Assembly: GCA_016178725.1 (NCBI GenBank)
Contig: JACOSV010000018.1
Location: 29,518 to 93,517 of the forward strand
Origin: Candidatus Eiseniibacteriota bacterium
Lineage (GTDB): Bacteria; Eisenbacteria; RBG-16-71-46
Reading direction: 5' to 3'
DNA: 64,000 nucleotides
In this document: positions 27,900 to 44,928 of the stretch, piece by piece
Position numbering within the stretch: position 1 is the first letter of the stretch
Layout of the letters: each line of letters begins with the position of its first letter
The notes under the pieces: model-generated
What the model saw: only the letters and a program-made list of their open reading frames with translations
Database searches by the model: none
Told to the model about the DNA's origin: nothing
Translations under genes and position numbers: made by a program

Positions 27900-29287
27900 G
27901 CTTCATCGGCCTCTCGCGGGACGAAGAGCAGCGAATGCTGGCCGCGATCGGCGTGACGCGATTCGACGATCTGATCGCGACGGTGCCCGAGGCGGTGCGG
28001 CTGCGCGAGCCGTTGGCGGTGCCCGGACCGCTCTCGGAGATCGAATCGCGGGCGCGTTTCGGCGAGTGGGCGCGGATGAACGACGCCGACCGCATGGCCT
28101 CGTTCCTGGGCGGCGGGCTCTACGACCACTACATCCCGGCGGCGCTGCAGGCGATCGCGATGCGCTCGGAGTTCGCGACCGCCTACACGCCGTACCAGCC
28201 CGAGGTGGCCCAGGGCTCGCTCACGGCGATCTTCGAGTTCCAGAGCATGATCGTCGAGCTGACGGGCACCGAGGTCGCCAACGCCTCGCTCTACGACGGC
28301 GCCACCGCGGCCGTCGAGGCGGCACTGCTCGCGCGGCACCAGACCGGCCGCGCGCGCGTCGTCGTGGCGGGTGCGGTGCATCCGCACATCGTCGACGTCC
28401 TGCGCACGTATCTGGGCGCGGACAACGTCACGGTCGTCGCCGACCGTGGCGGCGCGTGCGCGGAGGACGACCTCCAGGCGGCGCTCGGGGCCAACGTCGC
28501 GGCGGTCCTCTACCAGCACCCGAACTTCTTTGGCGTCCTCGAGCAGCCGGCCGCGCTGCACGCGCTCGCCCACGGCGCCGGCGCGCTGGCGGTCGCGGTG
28601 TGCGACCCGATCGCGCTGGCGCTGCTCGAGCCGCCGGGGGCGGCGGGCGCCGACATCGTCGTCGGCGAGGGCCAGTCGCTCGGCAATCCGCCGTCCTTCG
28701 GCGGGCCGCTGCTCGGGTTCTTCGCCTGCACGAAGGCGCTGGTGCGGCGGATGCCGGGGCGCATCGCCGGCGAGACCGTGGATCGGCTCGGCCGGCGCGG
28801 GTTCGTGCTCACGCTCCAGACCCGCGAGCAGCACATCCGGCGCGAGAAGGCGACCTCGAACATCTGCACGAATCAGGGTCTGCTCGCGCTGCGCGCGACG
28901 ATCTATCTCGGCCTGCTCGGCAAACTCGGGCTCACCGAGGTCGCCGAGCTGTGCGTGCAGAAGTCGCATCATGCAGCGGAACGCGCCGCGGCGATCGCGG
29001 GCTATCGGCTCGCCTTCGACGCGCCGTTCTTCCGCGAGTTCGTGCTCGAGTGCCCGGTGGACGCGGCCACCGTGATCCGCGCCGGCCGCGCCGCGGGCGT
29101 GCTCGCGGGCATCGACCTCGGCCGATTCCAGCCCGAGTGGCGCCGGCGGCTGCTGGTCGCGGTCACGGAACAGCGGAGCGCCGCCGACATCGAGCGCTGG
29201 CTCGGCGCGCTGCGTGCCGCGGCCGGAACGTCGCGCGACACGGTCGCGGCGGCGGGGGACGGCGGCGCCCGGCGAGGCGCGCGATGA
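27896..29287 (+). CDS. gcvPA: Glycine dehydrogenase (decarboxylating) subunit 1
   Basis: GTG start overlapping gcvH stop; FLGGGLYDHYIPAALQAIAMRSEFATAYTPYQPEVAQGSLTAIFEFQSMI. Confidence 0.95.
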   Translation: MSFIGLSRDEEQRMLAAIGVTRFDDLIATVPEAVRLREPLAVPGPLSEIESRARFGEWARMNDADRMASFLGGGLYDHYIPAALQAIAMRSEFATAYTPYQPEVAQGSLTAIFEFQSMIVELTGTEVANASLYDGATAAVEAALLARHQTGRARVVVAGAVHPHIVDVLRTYLGADNVTVVADRGGACAEDDLQAALGANVAAVLYQHPNFFGVLEQPAALHALAHGAGALAVAVCDPIALALLEPPGAAGADIVVGEGQSLGNPPSFGGPLLGFFACTKALVRRMPGRIAGETVDRLGRRGFVLTLQTREQHIRREKATSNICTNQGLLALRATIYLGLLGKLGLTEVAELCVQKSHHAAERAAAIAGYRLAFDAPFFREFVLECPVDAATVIRAGRAAGVLAGIDLGRFQPEWRRRLLVAVTEQRSAADIERWLGALRAAAGTSRDTVAAAGDGGARRGAR

Positions 29288-30786
29288 CGACGATGCCGCG
29301 GCGGCTCCTGATCGAGCAGGGCGGGCCGGGCCATCGCGGGCCGGCACTGCCGCGTTGCGACGTGCCGACCCGGCCCGTCACCGAGCACCTGCGCGGCGCG
29401 CGCCTGCGTGCGGAGCTGCGTCTGCCCGAGGTGAGCGAGCCCGAGGTCGTGCGGCACTTCGTCGAGCTCTCGACGCTCAACCACCACATCGACCGCGGGC
29501 TCTATCCGCTCGGCTCGTGCACGATGAAGCACAACCCCAAGATCAACGACGAGATCGCCGGGCTGGCCGGGTTCGCGCTCGCGCACCCGCTCGGCGACGA
29601 CGCCGCGAACCAGGGCGCGCTGCGCGTGATCCGCGAGCTCGAGAAGGCACTCGCCGCGATCAGCGGCTTCGCCGCGGTGAGCACGCAGCCGGCGGCGGGC
29701 GCTCAGGGCGAGATGACCGGCCTGCTCATGATCCGCGCCCACCATCGGGCGCGCGGCGAGGGCGAGACGCGCCGGCGCGTCATCGTGCCCGACTCGGCGC
29801 ACGGCACGAACCCGGCGAGCGTCCACCTCGTCGGCTACGAGACGGTGGTGATCCCGTCCGAGGCGCACGCGACCGTGGATCTCGACGCGCTGCGCGGCGC
29901 GCTCGACGAGCGCGCCGCGGCGGTCATGCTCACCGTGCCCAACACGCTCGGCCTGTTCGAGCCGCGCATCCGCGAGATCACCGCGCTCGCGCACGCCGCC
30001 GGAGCGCAGGTCTACATGGACGGCGCCAACATGAACGCGCTGGTCGGGCTCGTGCGCCCGGGCGACCTCGGCTTCGACGTCATGCACATCAACCTGCACA
30101 AGACGTTCTCGACGCCGCACGGCGGCGGCGGGCCGGGCGCCGGGCCGGTCGCGGTCGCGGCGCACCTCGAGCCCTACCTGCCGGCTCCCCGCGTGGTGGA
30201 GCGCGACGGTCGCTACGCGCTCGACGAGGACCGGCCGCGCTCGATCGGACGCGTGCACTCGTTCCACGGCAACTTCGGCATCCTGCTGCGTGCGCTGGTC
30301 TATGTCTCGACGCTCGGTCCCGAGGGGCTGCGCGCCGTGAGCCGCACCGCGATCCTCAACGCCAACTACCTCATGCGCCGGCTCGCCGGGCGCTACGACC
30401 TGCCGCACCCGGAGCACTGCATGCACGAATTCGTGCTCTCGGGGCGCGGACTCAAGCGCCACGGCGTCAAGACGCTCGACGTCGCGAAGCGTCTGCTCGA
30501 TTTCGGCGTCCACGCGCCGACGGTCTACTTTCCCCTGATCGTCGACGAGGCGCTGATGATCGAGCCCACCGAGACCGAGACGCTCGACCGGCTCGATCAC
30601 TTCGCCGCCGCGATGGAACGCATCGCGGACGAGGCGGCCGCGAATCCGCAGACGCTGCTCGACGCGCCGCACACGACGCCGGTCGGCCGGCTCGACGAGG
30701 CGCGCGCCGCGCGCGAGCTCAAGCTCCACTGGGCGTCTTCCGGCGCCGCGCGTCCCGCCGCCGCGCCCGCATCCGCGCGTGGCTGA
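29284..30786 (+). CDS. gcvPB: Glycine dehydrogenase (decarboxylating) subunit 2
   Basis: ATGA overlap with gcvPA; SCTMKHNPKINDEIAGLAGFA, DSAHGTNPAS, NLHKTFSTPHGGGGPGAGPV. Confidence 0.96.
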   Translation: MTTMPRRLLIEQGGPGHRGPALPRCDVPTRPVTEHLRGARLRAELRLPEVSEPEVVRHFVELSTLNHHIDRGLYPLGSCTMKHNPKINDEIAGLAGFALAHPLGDDAANQGALRVIRELEKALAAISGFAAVSTQPAAGAQGEMTGLLMIRAHHRARGEGETRRRVIVPDSAHGTNPASVHLVGYETVVIPSEAHATVDLDALRGALDERAAAVMLTVPNTLGLFEPRIREITALAHAAGAQVYMDGANMNALVGLVRPGDLGFDVMHINLHKTFSTPHGGGGPGAGPVAVAAHLEPYLPAPRVVERDGRYALDEDRPRSIGRVHSFHGNFGILLRALVYVSTLGPEGLRAVSRTAILNANYLMRRLAGRYDLPHPEHCMHEFVLSGRGLKRHGVKTLDVAKRLLDFGVHAPTVYFPLIVDEALMIEPTETETLDRLDHFAAAMERIADEAAANPQTLLDAPHTTPVGRLDEARAARELKLHWASSGAARPAAAPASARG

Positions 30787-31231
30787 CCGTCCGCCCGCGC
30801 CGCCGCCCGTGGATCCGTCCGCGCCGCTCGAGTGGTCGTTCAACCCGTGGCATGAACGACCGGCGCAGGCGTGGGGCGCGGCGGCCGTGGTGATCGTCAC
30901 CGTGGCGCTGGTCGCGGGCGCGGGGCTCCCGGCACTGGTCACGGCGGCGCTCGCGGCAGGGCTCGGCGCGGCACTCGGCCGGGCGCTGCTGCCGGCGCGC
31001 TGCGCGCTCGACGACGCCGGCGTCCGCTGGGGCGTCGGACCGCTCGTCCAGCGCCGGCCGTGGTCGGCGTTCCGGCGCGCGGTACGCGCCGGCGACGGCG
31101 TGCTGCTCTCGCCCTTCTCGCGGCGCAGCCGCCTCGACGCGTACCGCGCCGTGTTCCTTCCGTTCCCGTCGCGCCTCGCCGCGCGGCTCGTCCCGGACAT
31201 CGACGCGCGACTCGCCCGCCATGGCCTCTGA
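30779..31231 (+). CDS. Small membrane protein of unknown function
   Basis: Overlaps gcvPB end; two adjacent hydrophobic segments (GAAAVVIVTVALVAGAGLPALVTAALAAGLGAALG) then a basic domain; same frame/strand as operon. Confidence 0.6.
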   Translation: MADRPPAPPPVDPSAPLEWSFNPWHERPAQAWGAAAVVIVTVALVAGAGLPALVTAALAAGLGAALGRALLPARCALDDAGVRWGVGPLVQRRPWSAFRRAVRAGDGVLLSPFSRRSRLDAYRAVFLPFPSRLAARLVPDIDARLARHGL

Positions 31232-31541
31232 TCCCGCCGCGCCGACGCCCGACGCCGAGGACCTCGCCCTCCTCGACCGCGCCGCCGCACGCATCGTCGA
31301 GCTCCACATGGAGGTGCCGGCGATCCTCACGCTCGAGAGCGTGCGGCCGCTCACACTGGTCGCGGGCCAGGCGATGATCTTCTTCGAACCGATGGTGCAG
31401 GCGCTGTTCCGACTCGGCGACTACCGACGGTTCACCGCGCTGATCGAGCGGCGCGGGACGCCCCCGCTCCTGATCGAACGCATCGAGCGCGCGGCCGAAG
31501 CGGCGCGCTCCAGGCGCGCCGCGAACGGCCCGCCGGCCTGA
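31221..31541 (+). CDS. Small protein of unknown function
   Basis: Translationally coupled placement between 30779..31231 and 31553..33373; VPAILTLESVRPLTLVAGQAMIFFEPMVQALFRLGDYRRFTALIE. Confidence 0.55.
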   Translation: MASDPAAPTPDAEDLALLDRAAARIVELHMEVPAILTLESVRPLTLVAGQAMIFFEPMVQALFRLGDYRRFTALIERRGTPPLLIERIERAAEAARSRRAANGPPA

Positions 31542-31552
31542 GCGCGAGGCGC

Positions 31553-33373
31553 ATGGACCCCCGACCCTTCGACACCGCCCACATCCGCTCCATCCTCGCC
31601 ACCGACTGCGGCTCGACCACCACCAAGGCGATCCTGATCGAGCGCCGTGGCGACGCGTTCCGCCTCATCGTGCGCGGCGAGGCGCCCACCACGGTCGAGG
31701 CGCCGTTCGAGGACGTGACGCGCGGCGTGCTGAACGCGGTGCGCGAGGTCGAAGAGCTCGCCGGCCGCCGCATCCTCGACGGCGACCGCATCGTCTCGCC
31801 GCAGACCGCCGACGTCGGCGTGGACCTCTACGTCTCGACCTCGAGCGCGGGCGGCGGACTGCAGATGACCGTCTCGGGGCTGGTGCTGCAGATGACGGGG
31901 GAGAGCGCGCAGCGCGCCGCGCTGGGCGCCGGCGCGATCGTGATGGACGTGATCGCGCTCAACGACGGACGGCGGCCGCACGAGAAGATCCGCCGGCTGC
32001 GCCAGCTGCGCCCCGACATGATCCTGCTCTCGGGCGGCACCGACGGCGGCGACGTGCGCCGCGTCGCCGAGATGGCCGAGATCCTCCTCGCCGCCGATCC
32101 GCGCGCGCGCCTCGGCGCCGGCTACCAGCTGCCGGTGATCTACGCCGGCAACAAGGACGCGGCCGGCGTGGTGCGCGAGACGCTCGCCGAGAAGACGGCG
32201 CTCTCCGTGGTGCCCAACCTGCGGCCGGCGATGGAGCGCGAGAACCTCGGACCCGCGCGCGACGCGATCCACGAGCTGTTCATGGAGCACGTGATGGCGC
32301 ACGCGCCCGGCTACAAGAAGCTCATGACCTGGTCGCCGGTGCCGATCATGCCGACGCCCGGCGCGGTCGGGATCATCATCGAGGCCATCGCGCGGCGGGA
32401 CGGACGGTCGGTCGTGGGCGTGGACATCGGCGGCGCGACCACCGACGTCTTCTCGGTGTTCGGCGGCGTGTTCAACCGCACCGTGTCGGCGAACCTGGGC
32501 ATGAGCTACTCGGTGTCGAACGTCATGGCCGAGGCCGGGCTCGCGAACATCCTGCGCTGGGTGCCGTTCGCCGTCGACGAAGAGGACCTGCGCAACCGGG
32601 TCAAGAACAAGATGATCCGCCCGACGACGATCCCGCAGACGCTCGAGGACCTGGTGATCGAGCAGGCGATCGCGCGAGAGGCGCTGCGGCTCGCGTTCGA
32701 GCAGCACAAGGCGCTCGCGGTCGGGCTCAAGGGCGTGCAGACCGAGCGCACGATCTCGGACATCATGAGCCAGAGCGCCAGCGGCGCGACGCTCGTGGAC
32801 CTGCTCGACCTCGGGCTGCTGGTCGGTTCGGGCGGCGTGCTCTCGCACGCGCCGCGCCGCGCGCAGGCGGCGCTGATGATGATCGACGCGTTCCTGCCCG
32901 AAGGCCTCACGCACCTCGCCGTCGACAGCATCTTCATGGCCCCGCAGCTCGGCGTGCTCTCGACGGTGCACGAGGCGGCGGCGACGCAGGTGTTCGAGCA
33001 CGACTGCCTGGTGCGGCTGGGCGCGGTGCTCGCGCCGATCGGCGCCGGGCGGGCGGGACAGTCGTGCGTCACGGTCGAGGTGCGCGGCCCGGGGGGATCG
33101 GGCGCGCCGGTGCGCATCGCCTACGGCGAGCTCGTGCTGCTGCCGCTGCCGGAGGAGGGGGTCGTGCGCGTGGTCGCCACACCCGAGCGCGGCTTCGACC
33201 TCGGCGCGGGCAAGGGCAAGCCGCTCGAGGCCGAGGTGACCGGCGGTGTCGTCGGCCTGATCGTGGACGCGCGCGGCCGGCGCCCGTTCGCGCTGCCCGA
33301 CGCTCCCGCGGCACGCATCGCGAAGCTCAAGCAGTGGCACGCGGCGCTCGGCCTCTACGCGAGGGACATCTAG
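31553..33373 (+). CDS. Glutamate mutase MutL/GlmL-like ASKHA-fold protein
   Basis: STDCGSTTTKAILIE, DVGVDLYVSTSSAGGGLQMTVSGLV, ILLSGGTDGGDVRRVAEMAE, VPIMPTPGAV, VVGVDIGGATTDVFSVFGG; this is MutL of glutamate mutase, not mismatch-repair MutL. Confidence 0.82.
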   Translation: MDPRPFDTAHIRSILATDCGSTTTKAILIERRGDAFRLIVRGEAPTTVEAPFEDVTRGVLNAVREVEELAGRRILDGDRIVSPQTADVGVDLYVSTSSAGGGLQMTVSGLVLQMTGESAQRAALGAGAIVMDVIALNDGRRPHEKIRRLRQLRPDMILLSGGTDGGDVRRVAEMAEILLAADPRARLGAGYQLPVIYAGNKDAAGVVRETLAEKTALSVVPNLRPAMERENLGPARDAIHELFMEHVMAHAPGYKKLMTWSPVPIMPTPGAVGIIIEAIARRDGRSVVGVDIGGATTDVFSVFGGVFNRTVSANLGMSYSVSNVMAEAGLANILRWVPFAVDEEDLRNRVKNKMIRPTTIPQTLEDLVIEQAIAREALRLAFEQHKALAVGLKGVQTERTISDIMSQSASGATLVDLLDLGLLVGSGGVLSHAPRRAQAALMMIDAFLPEGLTHLAVDSIFMAPQLGVLSTVHEAAATQVFEHDCLVRLGAVLAPIGAGRAGQSCVTVEVRGPGGSGAPVRIAYGELVLLPLPEEGVVRVVATPERGFDLGAGKGKPLEAEVTGGVVGLIVDARGRRPFALPDAPAARIAKLKQWHAALGLYARDI

Positions 33374-34522
33374 ATGGCGCACGCCTACACGCCCGGGCTC
33401 CGCGTCACCGGGCACGCGGTGATCCGCCGCGAGCGCAGGCTCCCGCTCAAGGGCGAAGTGCTGGCGCGGATCGGCGACGCAGTGGACGCCGACACGGTCG
33501 TCGCGCGCACCGAGCTTCCGGGCAACGTGCAGACGATCAACGTCGCCTCGCGGCTCGCGCTCGACCCCGCGCGCGTGCCCGACTCGCTCGTCGCACCGGT
33601 CGGGAGCGCCGTGGCGAAGGGCGACGCGATCGCCGAAGGCAAGAGCCTCTTCGGCCTGATGAAGCAGCGCGTCGAAGCGCCGGTCGCCGGCACGATCGAG
33701 AGCGTCTCGCCGGTCACCGGACAGGTGATCCTGCGCGAGGCGCCGATCCCGGTCGAGGTCCACGCCTACGTGCGCGGCACGGTGGCCGAGGTGATCGAGG
33801 GCGAGGGCGTGGTGGTCGAAGCGGTGGGAGCCCTCATCCAGGGGATCTTCGGCGTCGGCGGCGAGACGTTCGGTCCGTTGCGCATCGCCGCCGCCGCGCC
33901 CGACGAGGAGCTCGCCGCGGCGCGGCTCTCGGCCGAGCACCGCGGCGCGGTGGTGGTCGGCGGCTCGTACGTGTCGTACGCGACGCTCATGCGCGCGCGC
34001 GAGCTCGGCGTCGCGGCGGTGGTGGTGGGCGGGTTCGACGACGGCGGGCTCAAGCGCCTGCTCGGCCGCGACCTCGGCGTCGCGATCACAGGCGCGGAGG
34101 ACCTCGGCCTGACGTTGGTGCTGACCGAGGGCTTCGGCCGGATCCGCATGGCCGACCGCACGTGGCGGCTGCTCGCCGCGCACGAGGGACGGCAGGCGTC
34201 GGTGAGCGGGGCGACGCAGATCCGCGCCGGCGTCCTGCGCCCGGAGATCGTGATCCCGGGCGTGGGCGAGCGCTCGGGCGACGCGACGTCGGTCGGCCGC
34301 CGCGAGACAGCATCGGATGGCGGCGCCGGCATCGAGATCGGCTCGCTGCTGCGCGTGATCCGCGAGCCGTTCTTCGGCCGGATCGGGCGCGTCACGGCGC
34401 TCCCCGCCGAGCTCCAGCCGCTCGAGACCGAAGCGCGGGTCCGCGTCATGGAGGTCGAGTTCGCGGACGACGGCGCGCGGGCGATCGTGCCGCGCGCGAA
34501 CGTCGAGCGGATCGAAGACTGA
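33374..34522 (+). CDS. Uncharacterised protein with barrel-sandwich (biotinyl/lipoyl-like) segment
   Basis: ATG directly after MutL-like stop; AVAKGDAIAEGKSLFGLMKQRVEAPVAGTIESVSPVTGQVILREAPIPVEVHAYVRGTVAEVIEGEGVVVE. Confidence 0.6.
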   Translation: MAHAYTPGLRVTGHAVIRRERRLPLKGEVLARIGDAVDADTVVARTELPGNVQTINVASRLALDPARVPDSLVAPVGSAVAKGDAIAEGKSLFGLMKQRVEAPVAGTIESVSPVTGQVILREAPIPVEVHAYVRGTVAEVIEGEGVVVEAVGALIQGIFGVGGETFGPLRIAAAAPDEELAAARLSAEHRGAVVVGGSYVSYATLMRARELGVAAVVVGGFDDGGLKRLLGRDLGVAITGAEDLGLTLVLTEGFGRIRMADRTWRLLAAHEGRQASVSGATQIRAGVLRPEIVIPGVGERSGDATSVGRRETASDGGAGIEIGSLLRVIREPFFGRIGRVTALPAELQPLETEARVRVMEVEFADDGARAIVPRANVERIED

Positions 34523-34540
34523 CGGCCGACGCATGCGGCG

Positions 34541-34569
34541 TTGACATGCTTCGCGGCGCGTTGTTACGG
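34541..34569 (+). promoter_or_regulatory. Sigma70-like promoter candidate (TTGACA-N17-TTACGG)
   Basis: TTGACA 34541-34546; TTACGG 34564-34569; upstream of the DUF6754-like gene. Confidence 0.45.
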
Positions 34570-34653
34570 TCGCGGGGCATCAGGGAAGAGACGAGTGGCC
34601 GGAAGCCTCCCGCCGATGCCGCCCGTCGCCGGTCACGACCCAGGAGGTTCCGC

Positions 34654-35922
34654 GTGCCACGAGGGCCGCGCCGCGAACGGTCGCGCTTCCGTGTATTCGC
34701 CCTGATCGCGCTCACCAGCCTCACCCCGGCCGCCGCGATGGCCGCAGGATCGGCCGCGGCGGCGCGCACCGCCGCCCCGGCCGACAGCCTTTCCGCCCAT
34801 GTGGCCCTGCCGGCCGAGAGCCTCGTCGCGCGGCCGCCCGCGCCCCGCCCGCCGTCCGGCCTCGTCGCGAACGACGTCCCGAACGACGCCGGCCAGGCGA
34901 TCCAGCTCGAATGGAAGCTCTCGCCCGACGACGCGACGACCAGCGCGATCGTCACGCAGTACTTCCTCGCCCGCTCCGAGACTCCGGGCGGGCCGTGGGC
35001 CGTCGTGGATTCGGTCGCGCGGGGCACGACGTCGAAGGTGGATCAGACCGTCGATCGCAACGTGGACTACTTCTACCGCGTCGACGCGGTCGGTCCCGGC
35101 GGTCGCACCGAGGCGGGCAGCGTCACCGGGCCGGTGCGCGGCGTGTCGCAGTGGATCAACTCGACGCGCTGGAGCGTGCTCACCGGCTGCATCGTGTTCT
35201 TCGCGTTCGTCCTCTACTACATCGCGAGCGCCCAGTCCGGGAAGAAGCCGTTCGTGCGCCGCATCCCCGGCATCGACGCAATCGAAGAGGCGATCGGGCG
35301 CGCGACTGAGATGGGGCGTCCGGTCCTCTACGTGCCGGGCATCCAGGACATCAGCGACATCCAGACCGTCGCCGGCCTCGTGATCCTCGAAAGCGTCGCC
35401 AAGCTCACGGCGCGGTACGAGACGCCGATCATCGTGCCGGTCACGTACCCGATCCCGTTCACGATTGCCGAGGAGATGGTGAAGGGCGGCTACCTGCACG
35501 CCGGACGGCCCGAGAGCTACGACCCGAACAGCGTGCGCTTCGTCTCGCCGGAGCAGTTCGCGTACGTCGCCTCGGTGACCGGCGTCATGCTTCGCGATCG
35601 GCCCGCCGCGCACATCTTCATGGGCTCGTTCTTCGCCGAGTCGCTCCTGCTCGCCGAGACCGGGTTCGCGACCGGCGCGATCCAGGTCGCCGGCACGGCC
35701 AACGTGCACCAGCTGCCGTTCTTCGTCGTCGCCTGCGACTACACCCTGATCGGCGAGGAGCTCTATGCCGCCAGCGCCTATCTCTCCGGCGAGCCCAAGC
35801 TCGTCGGCAGCCTCAAGGGCGCGGACCTCATGAAGCTCCTGATCCTCGGCACCGTGCTGATCGGCTGCCTGCTCGAAACCCTCAACGTCCACGGGCTGAC
35901 GACGTGGATGGTCACGCAATAG
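34654..35922 (+). CDS. DUF6754-like membrane protein with N-terminal signal/Fn3-like domain
   Basis: GTG start after aggagg; Fn3-like PPSGLVANDVPNDAGQAIQLEWKLSPDD...DYFYRVDAVGPGG; TM; GRPVLYVPGIQDISDIQTVAGLVILESVAKLTARYETPIIVP; assignment to DUF6754 is from memory. Confidence 0.65.
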   Translation: MPRGPRRERSRFRVFALIALTSLTPAAAMAAGSAAAARTAAPADSLSAHVALPAESLVARPPAPRPPSGLVANDVPNDAGQAIQLEWKLSPDDATTSAIVTQYFLARSETPGGPWAVVDSVARGTTSKVDQTVDRNVDYFYRVDAVGPGGRTEAGSVTGPVRGVSQWINSTRWSVLTGCIVFFAFVLYYIASAQSGKKPFVRRIPGIDAIEEAIGRATEMGRPVLYVPGIQDISDIQTVAGLVILESVAKLTARYETPIIVPVTYPIPFTIAEEMVKGGYLHAGRPESYDPNSVRFVSPEQFAYVASVTGVMLRDRPAAHIFMGSFFAESLLLAETGFATGAIQVAGTANVHQLPFFVVACDYTLIGEELYAASAYLSGEPKLVGSLKGADLMKLLILGTVLIGCLLETLNVHGLTTWMVTQ

Positions 35923-35933
35923 GGGGCCGCCCG

Positions 35934-36596
35934 GTGAAGCGCGAGGTCCCGCTCCTCATCACCGCCGTGATCGGCCTGTTCATGATCCTGTCGTTCTTCG
36001 TGCCGCACCAGGCCTTGAGCGTGCCCGCCGACTTCCTGCAGGCGAGCGCCGTGATCCTGGTCGGGTTCGGCTACGTGCTCGGCGGCGCCAACGCGCTGCG
36101 CGTCAACTTCGACGCGATCTACCGCCGCCAGCCCGGCTGGGGGTACAAGGTCGTACTGGTCGTCTCGCTGATCCTGACCGTCGCGATCGGCGCGATCGAG
36201 GGCCCGGGATTCCTCAACGAGGGCCGGCGTTCCAAGTGGATCTACGACTGGATCTACTCGCCGATGTCCTCGACGATGTTCGCGCTGCTCGCGTTCTTCA
36301 TCGCATCGGCCGCGTTCCGCGCCTTCCGCATCCGCACGGTCGAGGCCGGGCTGCTCGCCGCCGCGGCGCTGATCGTCATGCTCGGCCGCGTCCCGATCGG
36401 CGACGTGATGACCGACGGGCTCTTCCGCTGGCTGCCCGGGGGCCTCCACCTGAGCACGATCCAGCAGTGGATCATGGACGTGCCGCAGAACACCGCGAAG
36501 CGCGCGATCCTGATCGGCGCCGCTCTCGGCGTGATGTCCACCGGCCTGCGCGTGATCCTCGGGATCGAACGCTCGTACTTGAGCGGGGAGGACTAG
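35934..36596 (+). CDS. Multi-pass membrane protein of unknown function
   Basis: GTG start; about six hydrophobic segments (LLITAVIGLFMILSFFV, VVLVVSLILTVAIGAI, TMFALLAFFIASAAF). Confidence 0.65.
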   Translation: MKREVPLLITAVIGLFMILSFFVPHQALSVPADFLQASAVILVGFGYVLGGANALRVNFDAIYRRQPGWGYKVVLVVSLILTVAIGAIEGPGFLNEGRRSKWIYDWIYSPMSSTMFALLAFFIASAAFRAFRIRTVEAGLLAAAALIVMLGRVPIGDVMTDGLFRWLPGGLHLSTIQQWIMDVPQNTAKRAILIGAALGVMSTGLRVILGIERSYLSGED

Positions 36597-36599
36597 CCC

Positions 36600-37430
36600 A
36601 TGGCCTGGACCACCATGCTCGAGAAGCTCGACCGGCGCTGGATCTTCGCCGTCATGGGGCTGCTGGTCGCGGTGCCGCTCGTGTTCCCAGCCGGCCTGCC
36701 GCTCACCGTGTCCGCGCCCGCGCGCGGGTTCAGCGACGCGATCGACGCCGTGCCCGACGGCTCGACCATCCTCATGTCCTGCGACTACGACCCGAGCGCG
36801 CGCCCCGAGATGGTGCCGATGACGCGCACGGCATTCCGCCAGCTCATGCGCAAGAACTGCCGCGTAGTGGTGACGGTGCTGTGGAACGCCGGGCCGGCGC
36901 TGGTGGACGCGACGCTCAACGACATCGCCAGGGAGTTCCCGCAGAAGAAATACGGCGTCGACTGGGTGAACCTCGGCTACAAGGCCGGCGACGACGCGGT
37001 GATGGTGCTCATGGGCAAGGGGATCGCCAACGCGTTCCCGCGCGACTACCACGGCAACGAAACGAAGAGCCTGCCGATCATGCACAACGTCCGCGACTAC
37101 TCGAGCTTCCCGCTGCTGGTCAACATCTCGGCGGGATTCCCGGGCACGAAGGAGTGGGTGCAGCAGGTGCAGTCGCGCTTCCACCTGCCGATGGTCTCCG
37201 GGTGCACGGCGGTGAGCGCGCCCGAGTACTACCCGTATCTCCAGTCCGGGCAGCTCAAGGGCCTGCTCGGCGGCATGGCGGGCGCCGCCGAGTACGAGAA
37301 GATCCGCGGCGAGAACGGCACCGCCACGCGCGGCATGGACGCGCAGTCGCTGGCCCACGTCTTCGTCGCGTTCTGCATCGTGCTCGGCAACGTCGTGCAG
37401 TGGGCGAAGCGGCGGGAGGGGACGTCGTGA
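36600..37430 (+). CDS. Membrane-anchored protein of unknown function with soluble alpha/beta domain
   Basis: TMs at both ends flanking PDGSTILMSCDYDPSARPEMVPMTRTAFRQLMRKNCRVVVTVLWNAGPALVDATL. Confidence 0.65.
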   Translation: MAWTTMLEKLDRRWIFAVMGLLVAVPLVFPAGLPLTVSAPARGFSDAIDAVPDGSTILMSCDYDPSARPEMVPMTRTAFRQLMRKNCRVVVTVLWNAGPALVDATLNDIAREFPQKKYGVDWVNLGYKAGDDAVMVLMGKGIANAFPRDYHGNETKSLPIMHNVRDYSSFPLLVNISAGFPGTKEWVQQVQSRFHLPMVSGCTAVSAPEYYPYLQSGQLKGLLGGMAGAAEYEKIRGENGTATRGMDAQSLAHVFVAFCIVLGNVVQWAKRREGTS

Positions 37431-38128
37431 GCCTCCACATCGCATCGTTCCCGGCCCACTTCGAGATCTGGCTCGGCGCGTTCCTGACGCTGTGCATCTT
37501 CAGCTTCCTCTACAAGGACAATCCCTTCTACCGCTTCGCCGAGCATCTCTTCGTCGGCGTCTCGGCCGGCTACTACATCATCCTCAACTTCTGGACCGTG
37601 ATCGTCCCGAACCTCTGGGAGCCGCTGGTCAAGGCCTGGGGCAACGCCCAGGGCCACACCGGCATGATGTCGCTGTTCCTGCCGCGGCTCGGCGACTACC
37701 GCATCTTCCTCGTGTTGCCCGGCGTCCTCGGCCTGATGCTGTTCTCGCGCTTCTTCGGCCGCATCGGCTGGCTGTCGCGCTGGTCGCTCGCGGTGATCCT
37801 CGGCGTCTACGCCGGCATCCGCACCACCGGCGCCGCGCAGGCGGATTTCGTGGCGCAGGTGCAGGGGAGCCTCCAGCCCCTCTGGGTGGCAGGACATCTC
37901 GGCACGAGCCTCAACGCGATCATCTTCACCGTCGGGCTCGTCACCTCGCTGCTCTTCTTCTTCTACAGTCGCGAGCACAAGGGCAGCCTCGGCGTCGCGT
38001 CCAAGCTGGGCATCTACTTTCTCATGGTGTCGTTCGGCGCCGGCTACGGCTACACGGTGATGTCGCGCATCTCGCTCCTCATCGGACGCTTCCAGTTCCT
38101 GCTCGAGGACTGGCTCGGATTGAAATAG
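37427..38128 (+). CDS. Multi-pass membrane protein of unknown function
   Basis: GTG start overlapping previous stop; FEIWLGAFLTLCIFSFLYKDNPFYRFAEHLFVGVSAGYYIILNFW and further TMs. Confidence 0.65.
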   Translation: MSLHIASFPAHFEIWLGAFLTLCIFSFLYKDNPFYRFAEHLFVGVSAGYYIILNFWTVIVPNLWEPLVKAWGNAQGHTGMMSLFLPRLGDYRIFLVLPGVLGLMLFSRFFGRIGWLSRWSLAVILGVYAGIRTTGAAQADFVAQVQGSLQPLWVAGHLGTSLNAIIFTVGLVTSLLFFFYSREHKGSLGVASKLGIYFLMVSFGAGYGYTVMSRISLLIGRFQFLLEDWLGLK

Positions 38129-38141
38129 CTCACGGTCCGCC

Positions 38142-38918
38142 ATGATCCTCTGGTGTGACGGCGCGCACGACCCCGCGGAGAACATGCGCCGCGATGCGGC
38201 CCTGCTCGCGGCGGCCGAATGCGGCGCGGCGCCGGTGCTGCGGCTCTTCCGCTTCGCCCCGCACGGGATCACGCTCGGGATCCACCAGCGCGCCGGGCGC
38301 ACGCTCGATCTCGCGCGCTGCCGCAGGGACGGCGTGCCGTGGGCGATCCGTCCGACCGGGGGCCGCGCCATCTTCCACGCCGAGGAATGGACGTACGCGT
38401 TCGCGGCGCCGATCGACGATCCGGAGTGGGGCGGATCGCTGCGCGAGGCGTACGCGCGGGTCAGCACGCTCGTCCTCGCCTCACTCCTGCGCCTCGGCGT
38501 TCCCGCCGCATTCGCGCCCTCCGGCGCCGGCGCCACCGCCGGCGCGGCGGATGCGGCGTGCTTCGCCTCGGCCGCCGCGCACGAGCTGACGCTCGCGGGC
38601 GCGAAGCTGGCGGGCAGCGCACAGCGTCGCGGCGCACGCGCCTTCCTCCAGCAGGGGAGCGTGCTGCTCGGCGACGGGCATCTGCGGCTCGCGGACTACC
38701 TCGCGCTGCCGGAAACCGGGCGCGCGCGGGCGCACGAGGCGCTGCGGCGCGCCACCGCCGGCGCCGGGAAGCATCTCGGCACGGAACCGCCGCTCGAGCG
38801 CTGGGCGGATGCGCTCGCCGCCGAGCTCGGCGCCGCAGTGAGGCGCTGCGGCGGCGCGGCGGGAGCGTTTCTGTTGATTCCCGCGACGTCGCGTTCCTAT
38901 ACTCCGGCGGCGTTCTAA
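38142..38918 (+). CDS. Lipoate-protein ligase A family protein
   Basis: ITLGIHQRAGRTLD, RPTGGRAIFHAEEWTYAF, GAKLAGSAQRRGARAFLQQGSVLL. Confidence 0.82.
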   Translation: MILWCDGAHDPAENMRRDAALLAAAECGAAPVLRLFRFAPHGITLGIHQRAGRTLDLARCRRDGVPWAIRPTGGRAIFHAEEWTYAFAAPIDDPEWGGSLREAYARVSTLVLASLLRLGVPAAFAPSGAGATAGAADAACFASAAAHELTLAGAKLAGSAQRRGARAFLQQGSVLLGDGHLRLADYLALPETGRARAHEALRRATAGAGKHLGTEPPLERWADALAAELGAAVRRCGGAAGAFLLIPATSRSYTPAAF

Positions 38919-38953: not shown

Positions 38954-40780
38954 ATGTCGTCACGCGTACGGTGGACGGTGCTCACGGCGCTCGCAGGCGC
39001 GCTGCTGGCGGGGACGTGGGGTTGCGGGGCGGGCACCGGCGCGTCCGGCTCGGCGTATCAGGACCCGCATGCGCTGCCGGCCGATACGCTGACGATGCCG
39101 ATGGACGAGGTCGGCACGTACGGCGGCCGGTTCGTGATGGCGGAGACCGCCCCGCCGCGCACGTTCAACTCGGCGATGGCGAACGAGAGCTCGTCGTACG
39201 ACGTCACCGACGGGCGCCTGTACACGACGCTCGTGGACTACGACAACGCCTCGCAGCGCAGCGTCCCCGGTCTCGCCAGGGCGTGGGAGATCAGCCCCGA
39301 CGGCCTGACGTCCACCTGGCACCTGCGTCGCGGCGCCGCGTTCACGGACGGCCACCCGATCACATCGGCCGACGTGCTGTTCTCGTTCGAGATCTACATG
39401 GACGACACGCTGCACGTCGCGCTCTACGACTTCCTCAAGGTGAAGGGCCGGAAGCTCGAGGTCAGCGCGCCGGATTCGTACACGGTGGTGATCAAGGTCT
39501 CGGCGCCCTACGCGATGCTCGAAGACGTCGTGAGCTCGGTCTACATCCACCCGAAGCACGTCCTCGAACCCTACTACCGCAGCGGCCGCCTGGCGTCCGC
39601 CTACAGCGTCAGCACCCCGCCCGAGAGCCTCGTCACCAGCGGACCCTGGAAGCTCAAGCAGTACGTGCCGAATGAGAAGACCGTCCTCACGCGCAACCCG
39701 TACTGGTACGGCGTGGACGCTCACGGCCACCGGCTGCCGTACCTCGACGAGCTGGTCTTCCTGATCGTGCCCGACCAGAACACGGCGGCGCTCAAGTTCG
39801 ACGCCGGCGAGGTGGACGCGCTCGACGACGTGAAGCCCGAGAATTATGCCCGCTACGAGAAGGGGCAGAAGGCGGGCAACTTCACCTTCTACGACCTCGG
39901 ACCGGCGCTCAACACGAACTTCTTCTGGTTCAACCTCAACCGCGTGCGCGAGGCCAAGCCGGGGAAGAAGATCGGCCAGCCCTACGTCGACGCCACGCAC
40001 TACGCCTGGTTCAGCAATCGCGACTTCCGCCGCGCGGTCTCGAAGGCGATCGATCGCGACGCCATGATCAAGAGCGTCTTCTACGGCTTCGCCGTCAAGA
40101 ACTGGTCCACGCTCACCGCCGGGAACAAGGTCTGGTACACGCCCGACGTGCACCACGACGACTACGATCTCGAGGGCGCGAAGAAGCTGATCGCCGGGCT
40201 CGGGTGGAAGGACACCAACGGGGACGGCTACGTCGAGGACGCCCAGGGCCACACCGTCGCCTTCACCATCAAGACCAACAGCAGCAACCTCATGCGCGTC
40301 GGCATGTGCAACTTCATCAAGGACGATCTCAAGAAGATCGGCATCCGCGTCGATTCCACGCCACTCGACTTCAACTCGCTGATCACCAATCTGCGCTCCG
40401 ACTTCCAGTACGAAGCGCTGCTGCTCGGCCTGCAGAGCGCGGTGCCGCCCGATCCCGGCATGGGCCAGAACGTCTGGAGGTCGACCGGCCTCACGCACTA
40501 CTGGAACGTGAAGCAGCCGAAGCCCGAGACGCCGGCCGAGGCGCGCGTGGATTCGCTGGTCGCCGCGAACGTCGGGACGCTCGATATGTCCGAGCGCCAT
40601 CGCACGTGGACCGCGATGCAGAACACGATCAACGACGAATGCTTCGTGATGTGGCTTCCGACGCTGGTCTACAAGACCCCGATCCGGAACCGATTCGGCA
40701 ACGTCCACCCCACCGTGATCCCGCATCGGATCATCTGGAACATCGACCGGGTGTTCGTGAAGTCCAAGGCGCGCGCCTGA
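38954..40780 (+). CDS. Peptide/oligopeptide ABC transporter substrate-binding lipoprotein (SBP_bac_5 family)
   Basis: Lipobox-like WGCGAG; PGLARAWEISPDGLTSTWHLRRGAAFTDGHPITSADVLFSFE. Confidence 0.92.
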   Translation: MSSRVRWTVLTALAGALLAGTWGCGAGTGASGSAYQDPHALPADTLTMPMDEVGTYGGRFVMAETAPPRTFNSAMANESSSYDVTDGRLYTTLVDYDNASQRSVPGLARAWEISPDGLTSTWHLRRGAAFTDGHPITSADVLFSFEIYMDDTLHVALYDFLKVKGRKLEVSAPDSYTVVIKVSAPYAMLEDVVSSVYIHPKHVLEPYYRSGRLASAYSVSTPPESLVTSGPWKLKQYVPNEKTVLTRNPYWYGVDAHGHRLPYLDELVFLIVPDQNTAALKFDAGEVDALDDVKPENYARYEKGQKAGNFTFYDLGPALNTNFFWFNLNRVREAKPGKKIGQPYVDATHYAWFSNRDFRRAVSKAIDRDAMIKSVFYGFAVKNWSTLTAGNKVWYTPDVHHDDYDLEGAKKLIAGLGWKDTNGDGYVEDAQGHTVAFTIKTNSSNLMRVGMCNFIKDDLKKIGIRVDSTPLDFNSLITNLRSDFQYEALLLGLQSAVPPDPGMGQNVWRSTGLTHYWNVKQPKPETPAEARVDSLVAANVGTLDMSERHRTWTAMQNTINDECFVMWLPTLVYKTPIRNRFGNVHPTVIPHRIIWNIDRVFVKSKARA

Positions 40781-40790
40781 TCGGCGCCTG

Positions 40791-41756
40791 ATGCGCACCT
40801 ACATCCTTCGCCGTCTGCTGCAGGCCATCCCGCTGCTGCTCGGAATCTCGGCGCTCACGTTCCTGCTGATCAAGCTGACGCCGGGCGACTTCCTCAACAC
40901 GATTGCCGAGAATCCGATGGTCTCGGCCGATCAGATCGACGCCATGCGGCACCGCTTCGGCCTCGATCGACCCTGGCCGGTCCAGTACGCGATCTATCTC
41001 CGGAACATCTTCCTGCGCGGCGATTTCGGCGATTCCTTCTCCTTCCACCAGAAGGTCGCGGTCGTCATCCGCGCGGGATTGCTGAACACACTGGTCCTCG
41101 CCTCCGCGGCCGCGCTGGTGACCTGGCTGCTGGCGATCCCGCTCGGCGTGGCGGCGGCGGTGCGCCAGTACTCGTGGCTCGACAAGGCGCTCGGCGTCTT
41201 CGGCGTGATCGGGCTCTCGGTCCCGGAGGTGCTCTCGGGCCTGCTCCTGCTGATGCTCGCGGTGCGGATCGGATGGCCGGTCGGAGGGATGCACTCGCTC
41301 GACTACGACGCGATGGACCCGATCGGCAAGGCCATCGACGCGCTCAAGCATCTGGCCATGCCCGCGATCGTCGTGGGCCTCACGCCGCTGGCCGGGCGCA
41401 TGCGGCAGATGCGCGGCAACCTGCTCGACGTCCTGCGCCTCGACTACGTCACGACCGCCCGTGCCAAGGGGCTCGACGAGCGCGCCGTCGTCTACAAGCA
41501 CGCGGTCCGAAACGCGATCAACCCGCTGATCACCCTCTTCGGGTTCACGCTCGGCGCCCTGGTCTCGGGGTCGCTGGTCGCCGAGATCATCTTCGCCTGG
41601 CCGGGGCTCGGACGCATCACGTTCGAGGCGATCAGTACCAAGGACCAGTATCTGGTGATGGGCGCCGTCAACATGGCCGCCCTCGTCCTCATCCTCGGCA
41701 ACCTCGTCGCCGACCTCCTGCTCGCCGTGGCCGATCCGCGCATCGCGTATGACTGA
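40791..41756 (+). CDS. ABC transporter permease (DppB/OppB type)
   Basis: MRTYILRRLLQAIPLLLGISALTFLLIKLTPGD; TARAKGLDERAVVYKHAVRNAINPLITLFG. Confidence 0.95.
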   Translation: MRTYILRRLLQAIPLLLGISALTFLLIKLTPGDFLNTIAENPMVSADQIDAMRHRFGLDRPWPVQYAIYLRNIFLRGDFGDSFSFHQKVAVVIRAGLLNTLVLASAAALVTWLLAIPLGVAAAVRQYSWLDKALGVFGVIGLSVPEVLSGLLLLMLAVRIGWPVGGMHSLDYDAMDPIGKAIDALKHLAMPAIVVGLTPLAGRMRQMRGNLLDVLRLDYVTTARAKGLDERAVVYKHAVRNAINPLITLFGFTLGALVSGSLVAEIIFAWPGLGRITFEAISTKDQYLVMGAVNMAALVLILGNLVADLLLAVADPRIAYD

Positions 41757-42900
41757 CGGCGATCTCGATCCGACCGGCGTGGCGGACGCCGCCGACGCCG
41801 ACCGGCTCGGCCACCTTCCGGGGCTGTCCCCGTGGGGGATCTTCTGGCGTCAATTCCGCCGCAGCCCGCTCGCCGTCGCCGGGGCGGCGCTGCTCGGCTT
41901 CTTCTACACGGTCGCGCTTTTCGCTCCCTTCATCGCGCCCTACGGCGAGGCCGACATGGACCGCGAGCGCTTCTTCCATCCGCCGCACGCGCTCCACTGG
42001 ATCGATCCCCACGGCCGCTGGCATCTCGTCCCGTTCGTCCACCCCACGCGCGACGCCGGCGGGCAGGCGTTCGTCGAGGACCGCACCCGTGTCGTGCCGA
42101 TCCGCTGGTTCACGCACGGCGCGAAGTACCGGCTCTTCGGCCTGATCCCCACCGACCGGCACCTGTTCGGCGTGGACCCTCCGGACCGCATCTTCCTGTG
42201 GGGCGCCGACACGTCCGGCCGCGACGTCTTCTCGCGCGTCCTGTACGGCGCCCAGATCTCGCTCACGGTCGGGCTCGTCGGGCTCGTCATCTCGTTCACG
42301 ATCGGGATGATGCTCGGCGGCATCGCCGGCTACCTCGGCGGGTGGGCCGACGCGACCATCATGCGCGCGACGGAGCTGCTGCTCTCGATCCCCGCGCTGT
42401 ACCTGATCATCGCGCTGCGCGGCATCTTCCCGCCCACGCTCTCGAGCCAGCAGATCTACCTCGGCATCGTCGCGATCCTGGCGTTCATCGGCTGGGCCGG
42501 GCTCGCGCGCGTCATCCGCGGCATGGTGCTGTCGATCCGCCGCCAGGAATACGTCGCCGCCGCCGAGGCGCTCGGCATGAGCCGGCTGCGCGTCGTCGCC
42601 CGGCACATCCTTCCGAACACGTTGTCGTTCGTGATCGTCGCCGCGACCATCACCATCCCGGGGTACATCCTCGGCGAGATCTTCCTCTCGTTCCTCGCCG
42701 TCGGCGTGCAGGAGCCCGCGGCCTCGTGGGGCAACATGCTCAACGCGGCGCGCAGCCAGTCGGTGATGATCAGCTTCCCCTGGATGCTGATCGCGCCGGC
42801 CGCGGCCATCTTCGTGACGGTGATGGCGTTCAATCTGCTCGGCGACGGGCTGCGCGACGCGCTCGACCCGCGCAGGGTGATGGGAGGGAAGTCCGGGTGA
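41749..42900 (+). CDS. ABC transporter permease (DppC/OppC type)
   Basis: [55 protein letters not shown]. Confidence 0.95.
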
Positions 42901-43920
42901 GCGCGCCGATCCTCGAGATCGAGAATCTCCAGACCTACTTCTTCACCGACGACGGCGAGGTGCGCGCCGTGGACGGCGTCAGCTACGCGATCGGCGAGCG
43001 CGAGACGCTGGCGGTGGTGGGCGAGTCGGGGAGCGGCAAGAGCGTTACGGCGCTCTCGGTCCTGCGCCTGATCGCCGAGCCGCCCGGGAAGATCGTCGGG
43101 GGGAAGATCCTGTTCCGCGGCTGCGATCTGACCGCCGCGACGCCGGCCGAGATGCGCGCCATCCGCGGCAAGGCGATCTCGATGATCTTCCAGGAGCCGA
43201 TGACGTCGCTCAACCCCGTCTACACCTGCGGCGAGCAGATCATCGAGACGCTGATCCTCCACGAGAAGATCGACCGCCGCGCCGCGCGCGAGCGGGCGAT
43301 CGCGATGCTCAAGCTGGTCGGCATCCCGGTCCCCGAACAGCGCGTGGACGAATACCCGCACCAGATGTCCGGCGGCATGCGCCAGCGCGTCATGATCGCG
43401 ATGGCGCTCGCCTGCCGGCCCGCGATCCTGATCGCCGACGAGCCGACGACGGCGCTCGACGTCACGATCCAGGCGCAGATCCTCGAGCTGCTCAAGCGGC
43501 TCCAGGCCGAGCTCGGCATGGCGGTGCTGCTCATCACGCACGACCTCGGCGTGGTCGCCGAGACCGCCGACCGCGTCGCGGTGATGTACGCGGGCCAGGT
43601 GGTGGAGTACTGCGACGTCGACGAGGCCTTCCGGCGGCCGCTCCATCCCTACACCGCCGGGCTGCTGGCCTCGTTGCCGCGGCTCGGCGACCACCGCGCG
43701 ACGCTGCGCGTGATCCCCGGCAACGTGCCGAACCCGGCGCGCTTCCCGCAGGGCTGCCGCTTCCATCCGCGCTGCCCGGTCGCCGAGGAGCGCTGCCGCA
43801 CCGAGCCGCCGCTGCTCACGTTCGACGGCACCCATCGCTCGCGCTGCTGGCGCGCCGACGAGATCGCCACGGGGCGTCTCGACCCGACCGGCGCCGGCGG
43901 TGACGCCGCGGGAGGCGGTC

Positions 43921-43928
<8 letters not shown>
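42897..43928 (+). CDS. ABC transporter ATP-binding protein (DppD/OppD type)
   Basis: [49 protein letters not shown]-terminal Cys-containing [17 protein letters not shown]. Confidence 0.95.

Positions 43929-44928
<1,000 letters not shown>

Follow-up and report, generated by a model that had tools for sequence, protein, structure and literature searches.

Do four adjacent genes in a Candidatus Eiseniibacteriota genome, all of them encoding membrane proteins, specify the parts of one complex, and what might such a complex do? The genes lie in a 64,000-nucleotide stretch of one contig, which was analysed as a whole and is referred to as the window; all coordinates without a locus name are window positions. 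An initial annotation had placed a four-gene cassette at 34654-38128 and suggested that its products form a single membrane complex.

Genes A to D and the predicted layout of their products

The four genes, with the conserved region of the first, are as follows:

34654-35922, + strand: A, GTG start with AGGAGG just ahead, 422 aa, DUF6754 protein
35146-35904, + strand: DUF6754 region of A, top-conserved residues ETG, IQ.AGT and GEE..AA
35934-36596, + strand: B, GTG start, 220 aa, about six TM helices, N-terminus in
36600-37430, + strand: C, ATG start, 276 aa, TM, extracytoplasmic alpha/beta domain, TM
37427-38128, + strand: D, GTG start, 233 aa, about six TM helices, N-terminus out

Analyses of the reading frames indicated that the four consecutive, coupled genes are real. 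All are on the plus strand, with gaps of 11 nt between A and B and 3 nt between B and C and a 4-nt overlap between C and D, in which the GTG of D overlaps the TGA of C, as had been noted at 37427. The several GTG starts described earlier are those of A, B and D, and the start of B is backed by an N-terminus (MKREVPL) that is conserved among the relatives compared. Purifying selection was evident on all four genes (dN/dS 0.16-0.27 against the relative L002, whose proteins are 77-83% identical). The promoter that the four were said to share, at 34541-34569, was not recovered, as a promoter scan found no site there; TTGACA is present in this segment and the second hexamer is poor (TTACGG at 17 nt, TACGGT at 18 nt).

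Pfam profile searches identified A as a full DUF6754 member (PF20539, E=1e-111, residues 165-417), with 372 bits against a gathering cut-off of 27 and a match to positions 3-255 of the 257 in the profile. Domain and fold comparisons placed an Fn3 domain in its N-terminal part, which agrees with the earlier description of an Fn3-like protein with a DUF6754-like domain. No Pfam or NCBIfam family was matched above cut-off by B, C or D.

Topology was predicted from hydrophobicity and charge bias (the positive-inside rule) in 65-72 sequences. Protein A is predicted to have a signal peptide, the Fn3 part outside, a TM helix, the alpha/beta DUF6754 domain in the cytosol and a further TM helix. Protein C is predicted to have its N-terminus inside, a TM helix, an alpha/beta domain outside, a second TM helix and its C-terminus inside; one C with a long zinc-ribbon and disordered N-terminus is consistent with a cytosolic N-end. 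The AlphaFold model of C was good (pLDDT 87) and had the alpha/beta domain between two long helices. Both the TM helices at each end of C and the multi-pass character of B (~220 aa) and D (~233 aa) were thus as first described. Two segments that had been called repeats, and possible ligand-binding domains, occur once each, YVPGIQDISDIQTVAGL in A and LPIMHNVRDYSSFPLLVNI in C; they sit in the two alpha/beta domains, of which one is predicted to face the cytosol and the other the outside, and the ligand-binding reading found no support.

The AlphaFold model of A was poor in the DUF6754 domain, and among the matches listed from a fold search with it only the Fn3 part was matched. The same search with the model of C returned generic alpha/beta and other matches, none with E <0.001, and no solved structure was convincingly like the core of A or of C. 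Proteins A and C have a TM-alpha/beta-TM plan in common. Inverted paralogue pairs (A with C, B with D) were considered and rejected, as profile comparison gave no significant match (best A-C P 0.027, and none for B-D).

Several homologues are enlarged. The C homologue at L094:10232-14758 is 1508 aa long; it has a zinc ribbon at its N-terminal end and contains dozens of 'PAWL/PSWL' repeats, and the adjoining MutL has similar 'DWL' motifs in its tail. At L146:4580-6403 a 607-aa B homologue carries an insert of about 390 aa between TM3 and TM4, which is predicted to be outside and had no Pfam match. The D homologues of L104 and L149 also have large inserts.

An eight-gene unit with a MutL-like ATPase

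The boundaries first given to the cassette were too narrow. The operon-like block begins at 30779, and the true unit is T-S-MutL-P5-A-B-C-D (30779-38128), with four further co-inherited genes ahead of A:

30779-31231, + strand: T, 150 aa, two TM helices and a weak bacterial-PH-like tail, overlapping S
31221-31541, + strand: S, small protein of 106 aa, no known family
31553-33373, + strand: MutL, 606-aa MutL/GlmL-like ASKHA ATPase with a C-terminal extension (PF13941, E=1e-122)
33374-34522, + strand: P5, 382 aa, N-terminal RnfC-like barrel-sandwich domain (weak RnfC_N match)

Only the DUF6754 and MutL domains of this unit are already in family libraries. T, S, P5, B, C and D had no family match above cut-off; S had no Pfam match at all, the resemblance of P5 to RnfC or biotin-lipoyl domains was weak, and the bacterial-PH matches, found in relatives of T, were weak and below cut-off.

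The MutL of the unit shares with the GlmL/MutL family (PF13941, NF040745, TIGR01319) the whole 450-residue domain and its ATP motifs. Unlike GlmL, it is about 150 residues longer, falls below the NCBIfam cut-offs (216 bits against 475 for the GlmL equivalog) and is tied to a putative membrane complex. The three ATP-site motifs of the ASKHA fold are all in the window protein (phosphate-1, DCGSTTTK at 18; phosphate-2, DIGGATT at 291; adenosine, GSGGV at 425), and a pattern search found them in 48, 52 and 50, respectively, of 52 long MutL sequences. As these motifs are kept, MutL is probably an active ATPase. We rejected a role for it as a glutamate mutase partner because 39 of 40 A-positive genomes lacked the E subunit (PF06368 was above cut-off in one; the genome of the window was outside this set).

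An actin-fold ATPase beside membrane proteins is also the arrangement of PilM/FtsA-type systems, and the ASKHA fold of MutL, encoded next to TM proteins with outside domains, could be read as a cytoskeleton-like envelope scaffold in which MutL takes a PilM/FtsA-type role toward its membrane partners. However, MutL belongs to a different ATPase family and matches no PilM/FtsA family, homologous membrane parts were not found, and those systems have nothing that corresponds to B and D, the conserved multi-TM proteins. We regard a scaffold of this kind as improbable.

Residues 72-120 of P5 weakly resemble the RnfC N-terminal barrel-sandwich and biotin-lipoyl domains (19 bits against a cut-off of 25.6), and no Rnf family was among the tallied neighbour families shown. 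We rejected a reading in which the adjacent LplA homologue lipoylates P5 to make it a carrier, because the lysine at the lipoyl hairpin tip is not conserved (LMKQRV in the window P5; LLSQRA, LVRNEV and FFRSQL in relatives) and LplA is absent from most distant loci.

MutL and P5 are fused as one reading frame of about 1000 aa in paralogues, and together they probably make up the cytosolic half of the unit. At L086-L091 this fusion is a second paralogue, in genomes that also have the separate genes, and at L088 and L089 it stands beside DAHP-synthase-family (KDO-8P-synthase-like) and SIS-CBS genes. At L099:5667-6560, a single reading frame apparently joins S to a DUF2064 domain.

Gene order and co-inheritance

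The gene-neighbourhood analysis that had been proposed for the four genes showed a near-fixed order. Among the compared loci, A-B adjacency was counted 67 times, B-C 66 and C-D 67, and the gaps within ABCD had medians from -1 to 11 nt. Upstream, all 25 T genes counted stood directly ahead of S; the gene after S was MutL in 38 cases and A in 8, P5 came after MutL in 46, and A came after P5 in 31. The exceptions to this order were few and arose partly from the ends of stretches.

Co-occurrence was near-perfect. In a set of 385 genomes, which includes relatives from the phylum of the window and therefore over-represents it, A and C were each found in 134 (both in 131, A alone in 3, C alone in 3, neither in 248; Fisher p ~2e-95, a statistic that takes no account of shared ancestry). 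G377, counted among the A-only genomes, does hold a divergent C within a 1508-aa protein. B was found in 40 of 40 A-positive genomes and 0 of 40 A-negative ones. D was likewise in 40 of 40 A-positive genomes, and the only match among 40 A-negative genomes was a marginal one (E=1.6e-4, G087), which we discounted. Altogether 137 of the 385 genomes, about a third of the sample, had A or C. P5 was identified with confidence in 127 genomes, all of them with A or C, and it was absent from 10 of the 137, including the single-contig genome G104, which had no MutL match either; on this basis MutL-P5 may not be strictly required. Proteins with the MutL domain are spread more widely because true GlmL-like proteins (~460 residues) also match.

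The cassettes are often present in several copies, with DUF6754 in 45 of 47 genomes of the window's phylum and up to seven copies per genome, and P5 is usually single. Five loci of an Eisenbacteria-like group (L006, L010, L011, L106 and L107, of which L106 and L010 cover the same contig) carry two tandem cassettes. In these five, A and C tracked each other within a cassette (r 0.82-0.91) and not between sister cassettes (r 0.01-0.19). Beyond them the gap between own and sister correlations was smaller, and at L066, L076 and L145 some swapped A-C pairs correlated as well as, or better than, the true pairs. In the single-contig genome G182 the genes are dispersed (A and P5 at 0.29 Mb, MutL at 0.79, D at 2.30 and B at 3.48), and C is also present. 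The cassette-wise tracking of A and C, this dispersal without loss and the copy numbers argue for function rather than hitchhiking. At L147:3398-4381 a methenyl-tetrahydromethanopterin cyclohydrolase gene (PF02289) adjoins D in G182, a gene that is suggestive of a planctomycete.

Four unrelated membrane proteins brought into one operon by chance would be hard to reconcile with near-perfect order and co-occurrence across very distant genomes, with the retention of all four genes in G182 after dispersal and with the cassette-wise co-evolution. The co-occurrence tests already contradict this explanation, which we consider very improbable indeed. Co-inheritance, gene order and co-evolution suggest, indirectly, that A, B, C and D very likely form one physical complex. 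The proposal of a single membrane complex was supported in that the four genes do not occur independently across genomes and match no known transporter or secretion system; it was incomplete because the conserved unit also holds a MutL-like ATPase, P5 and two small genes.

The number of cassettes also bears on a possible sensing or signalling complex, in which Fn3 and the domain of C would sense the outside and MutL-P5 would provide a cytosolic readout. Consistent with this, the outer part of A is variable (264-943 aa), its cytosolic domain is conserved, and a genome with several cassettes usually has one P5. Yet the conserved set has no output domain (kinase, cyclase or transcription factor), two-component genes adjoin few loci only, and the membrane parts B and D are large for a sensing function. 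A sensor thus seems rather unlikely to us.

Genomic neighbours and candidate function

Two genes flank the unit in the window and were scored as neighbours, not as part of the core:

28066-30786, + strand: frame ending in glycine dehydrogenase subunit 2 (gcvPB; GcvP2_C, E=3e-27), with GcvP2_C and GDC-P within residues 497-859
38142-38918, + strand: LplA/B-type lipoyl ligase homologue (PF21948, E=1e-22)

In several lineages gcvT-gcvH-gcvPA-gcvPB is just upstream and LplA downstream, the LplA homologue being downstream only in some lineages. Further downstream in the window, at 38960-44300, are genes like those of an oligopeptide-type ABC transporter (binding protein, two permeases and ATPase). 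The LplA homologue at L003:2755-3524 spans two frames, possibly because of a frameshift or an assembly error. The neighbour survey otherwise found downstream genes to be mixed (TonB receptors, TPR and two-component proteins), with no consistent theme. No known structured RNA was found near the operon, and there were no matches indicating phage or plasmid origin.

These neighbours are a weak pointer to glycine cleavage, not to the envelope, and for that reason we retained the possibility that the products form a membrane-bound enzyme complex in central metabolism (one-carbon/glycine), which MutL-P5 would serve as a reactivase-like chaperone. GlmL and diol-dehydratase reactivases keep radical enzymes working, and MutL is related to the GlmL family. 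In addition, GDC-P was found in 40 of 40 A-positive genomes against 33 of 40 A-negative ones; this difference is weak (p=0.012) because glycine cleavage is common, and these neighbours are missing at most loci. The searches turned up no known enzyme fold, the near absence of glutamate mutase E tells against such a role, and the domain of C is predicted to be outside. We therefore consider a metabolic complex unlikely, although worth keeping in view.

On balance, we slightly favor a different overall explanation, in which A, B, C and D would together supply the membrane part of a single inner-membrane machine, whose cytosolic, ATP-using half would be P5 and the MutL-like ASKHA ATPase, helped by S and T. 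B and D would make the membrane core. A would put its conserved alpha/beta domain into the cytosol for MutL-P5 to act on, with the Fn3 modules outside, and C would put a second alpha/beta domain outside. Changes driven by ATP in MutL-P5 would then reach the outer domain of C by way of A and B/D. Coupling to ATP by MutL-P5 is, in our judgement, reasonably probable. The likeliest task of such a machine would be moving, assembling or maintaining an envelope component; envelope transport or maintenance as its use is a tentative guess. We also speculate, equally cautiously, that a GlmL-type ASKHA ATPase rather than a P-loop one powers the four-subunit complex, that work is carried from the cytosolic domain of A to the extracytoplasmic domain of C, and that extra cassettes serve different outside partners.

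Comparison with known systems offered no closer model. None of the PADLOC defence-system models matched the eight proteins. Among transporter and secretion families, B, C and D had no Pfam or NCBIfam match above cut-off and no clear PDB match, and their relatives gave a few weak matches to unrelated families. DUF6754 (PF20539), of which A is a full-length member, is a label without an attached function, and no family exists for its fixed partners (B, C, D, S, T and P5). For B, C, D and S, searches of family libraries, structures and the literature came back empty, and no paper on DUF6754, PF20539 or PF13941 was found in the literature searched, outside which lie preprints and most subscription journals. 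The passages searched of two large studies of unknown genes (PMC10849945 and PMC9727166) do not mention the system. It appears never to have been studied before, and we class the unit as new because no known kind fits it, not from a demonstrated mechanism.

That as many as eight genes are kept together in roughly one third of the sampled genomes, in up to seven copies, indicates that the unit likely has an important role in the cell. Finished genomes are available for some carriers, and these may be in culture; the system should therefore be open to testing. If its function were found, DUF6754 and at least five nameless families would gain one, and, if the proposed arrangement is true, a MutL/GlmL-type ATPase would have a membrane complex, not a B12 mutase, as its partner.
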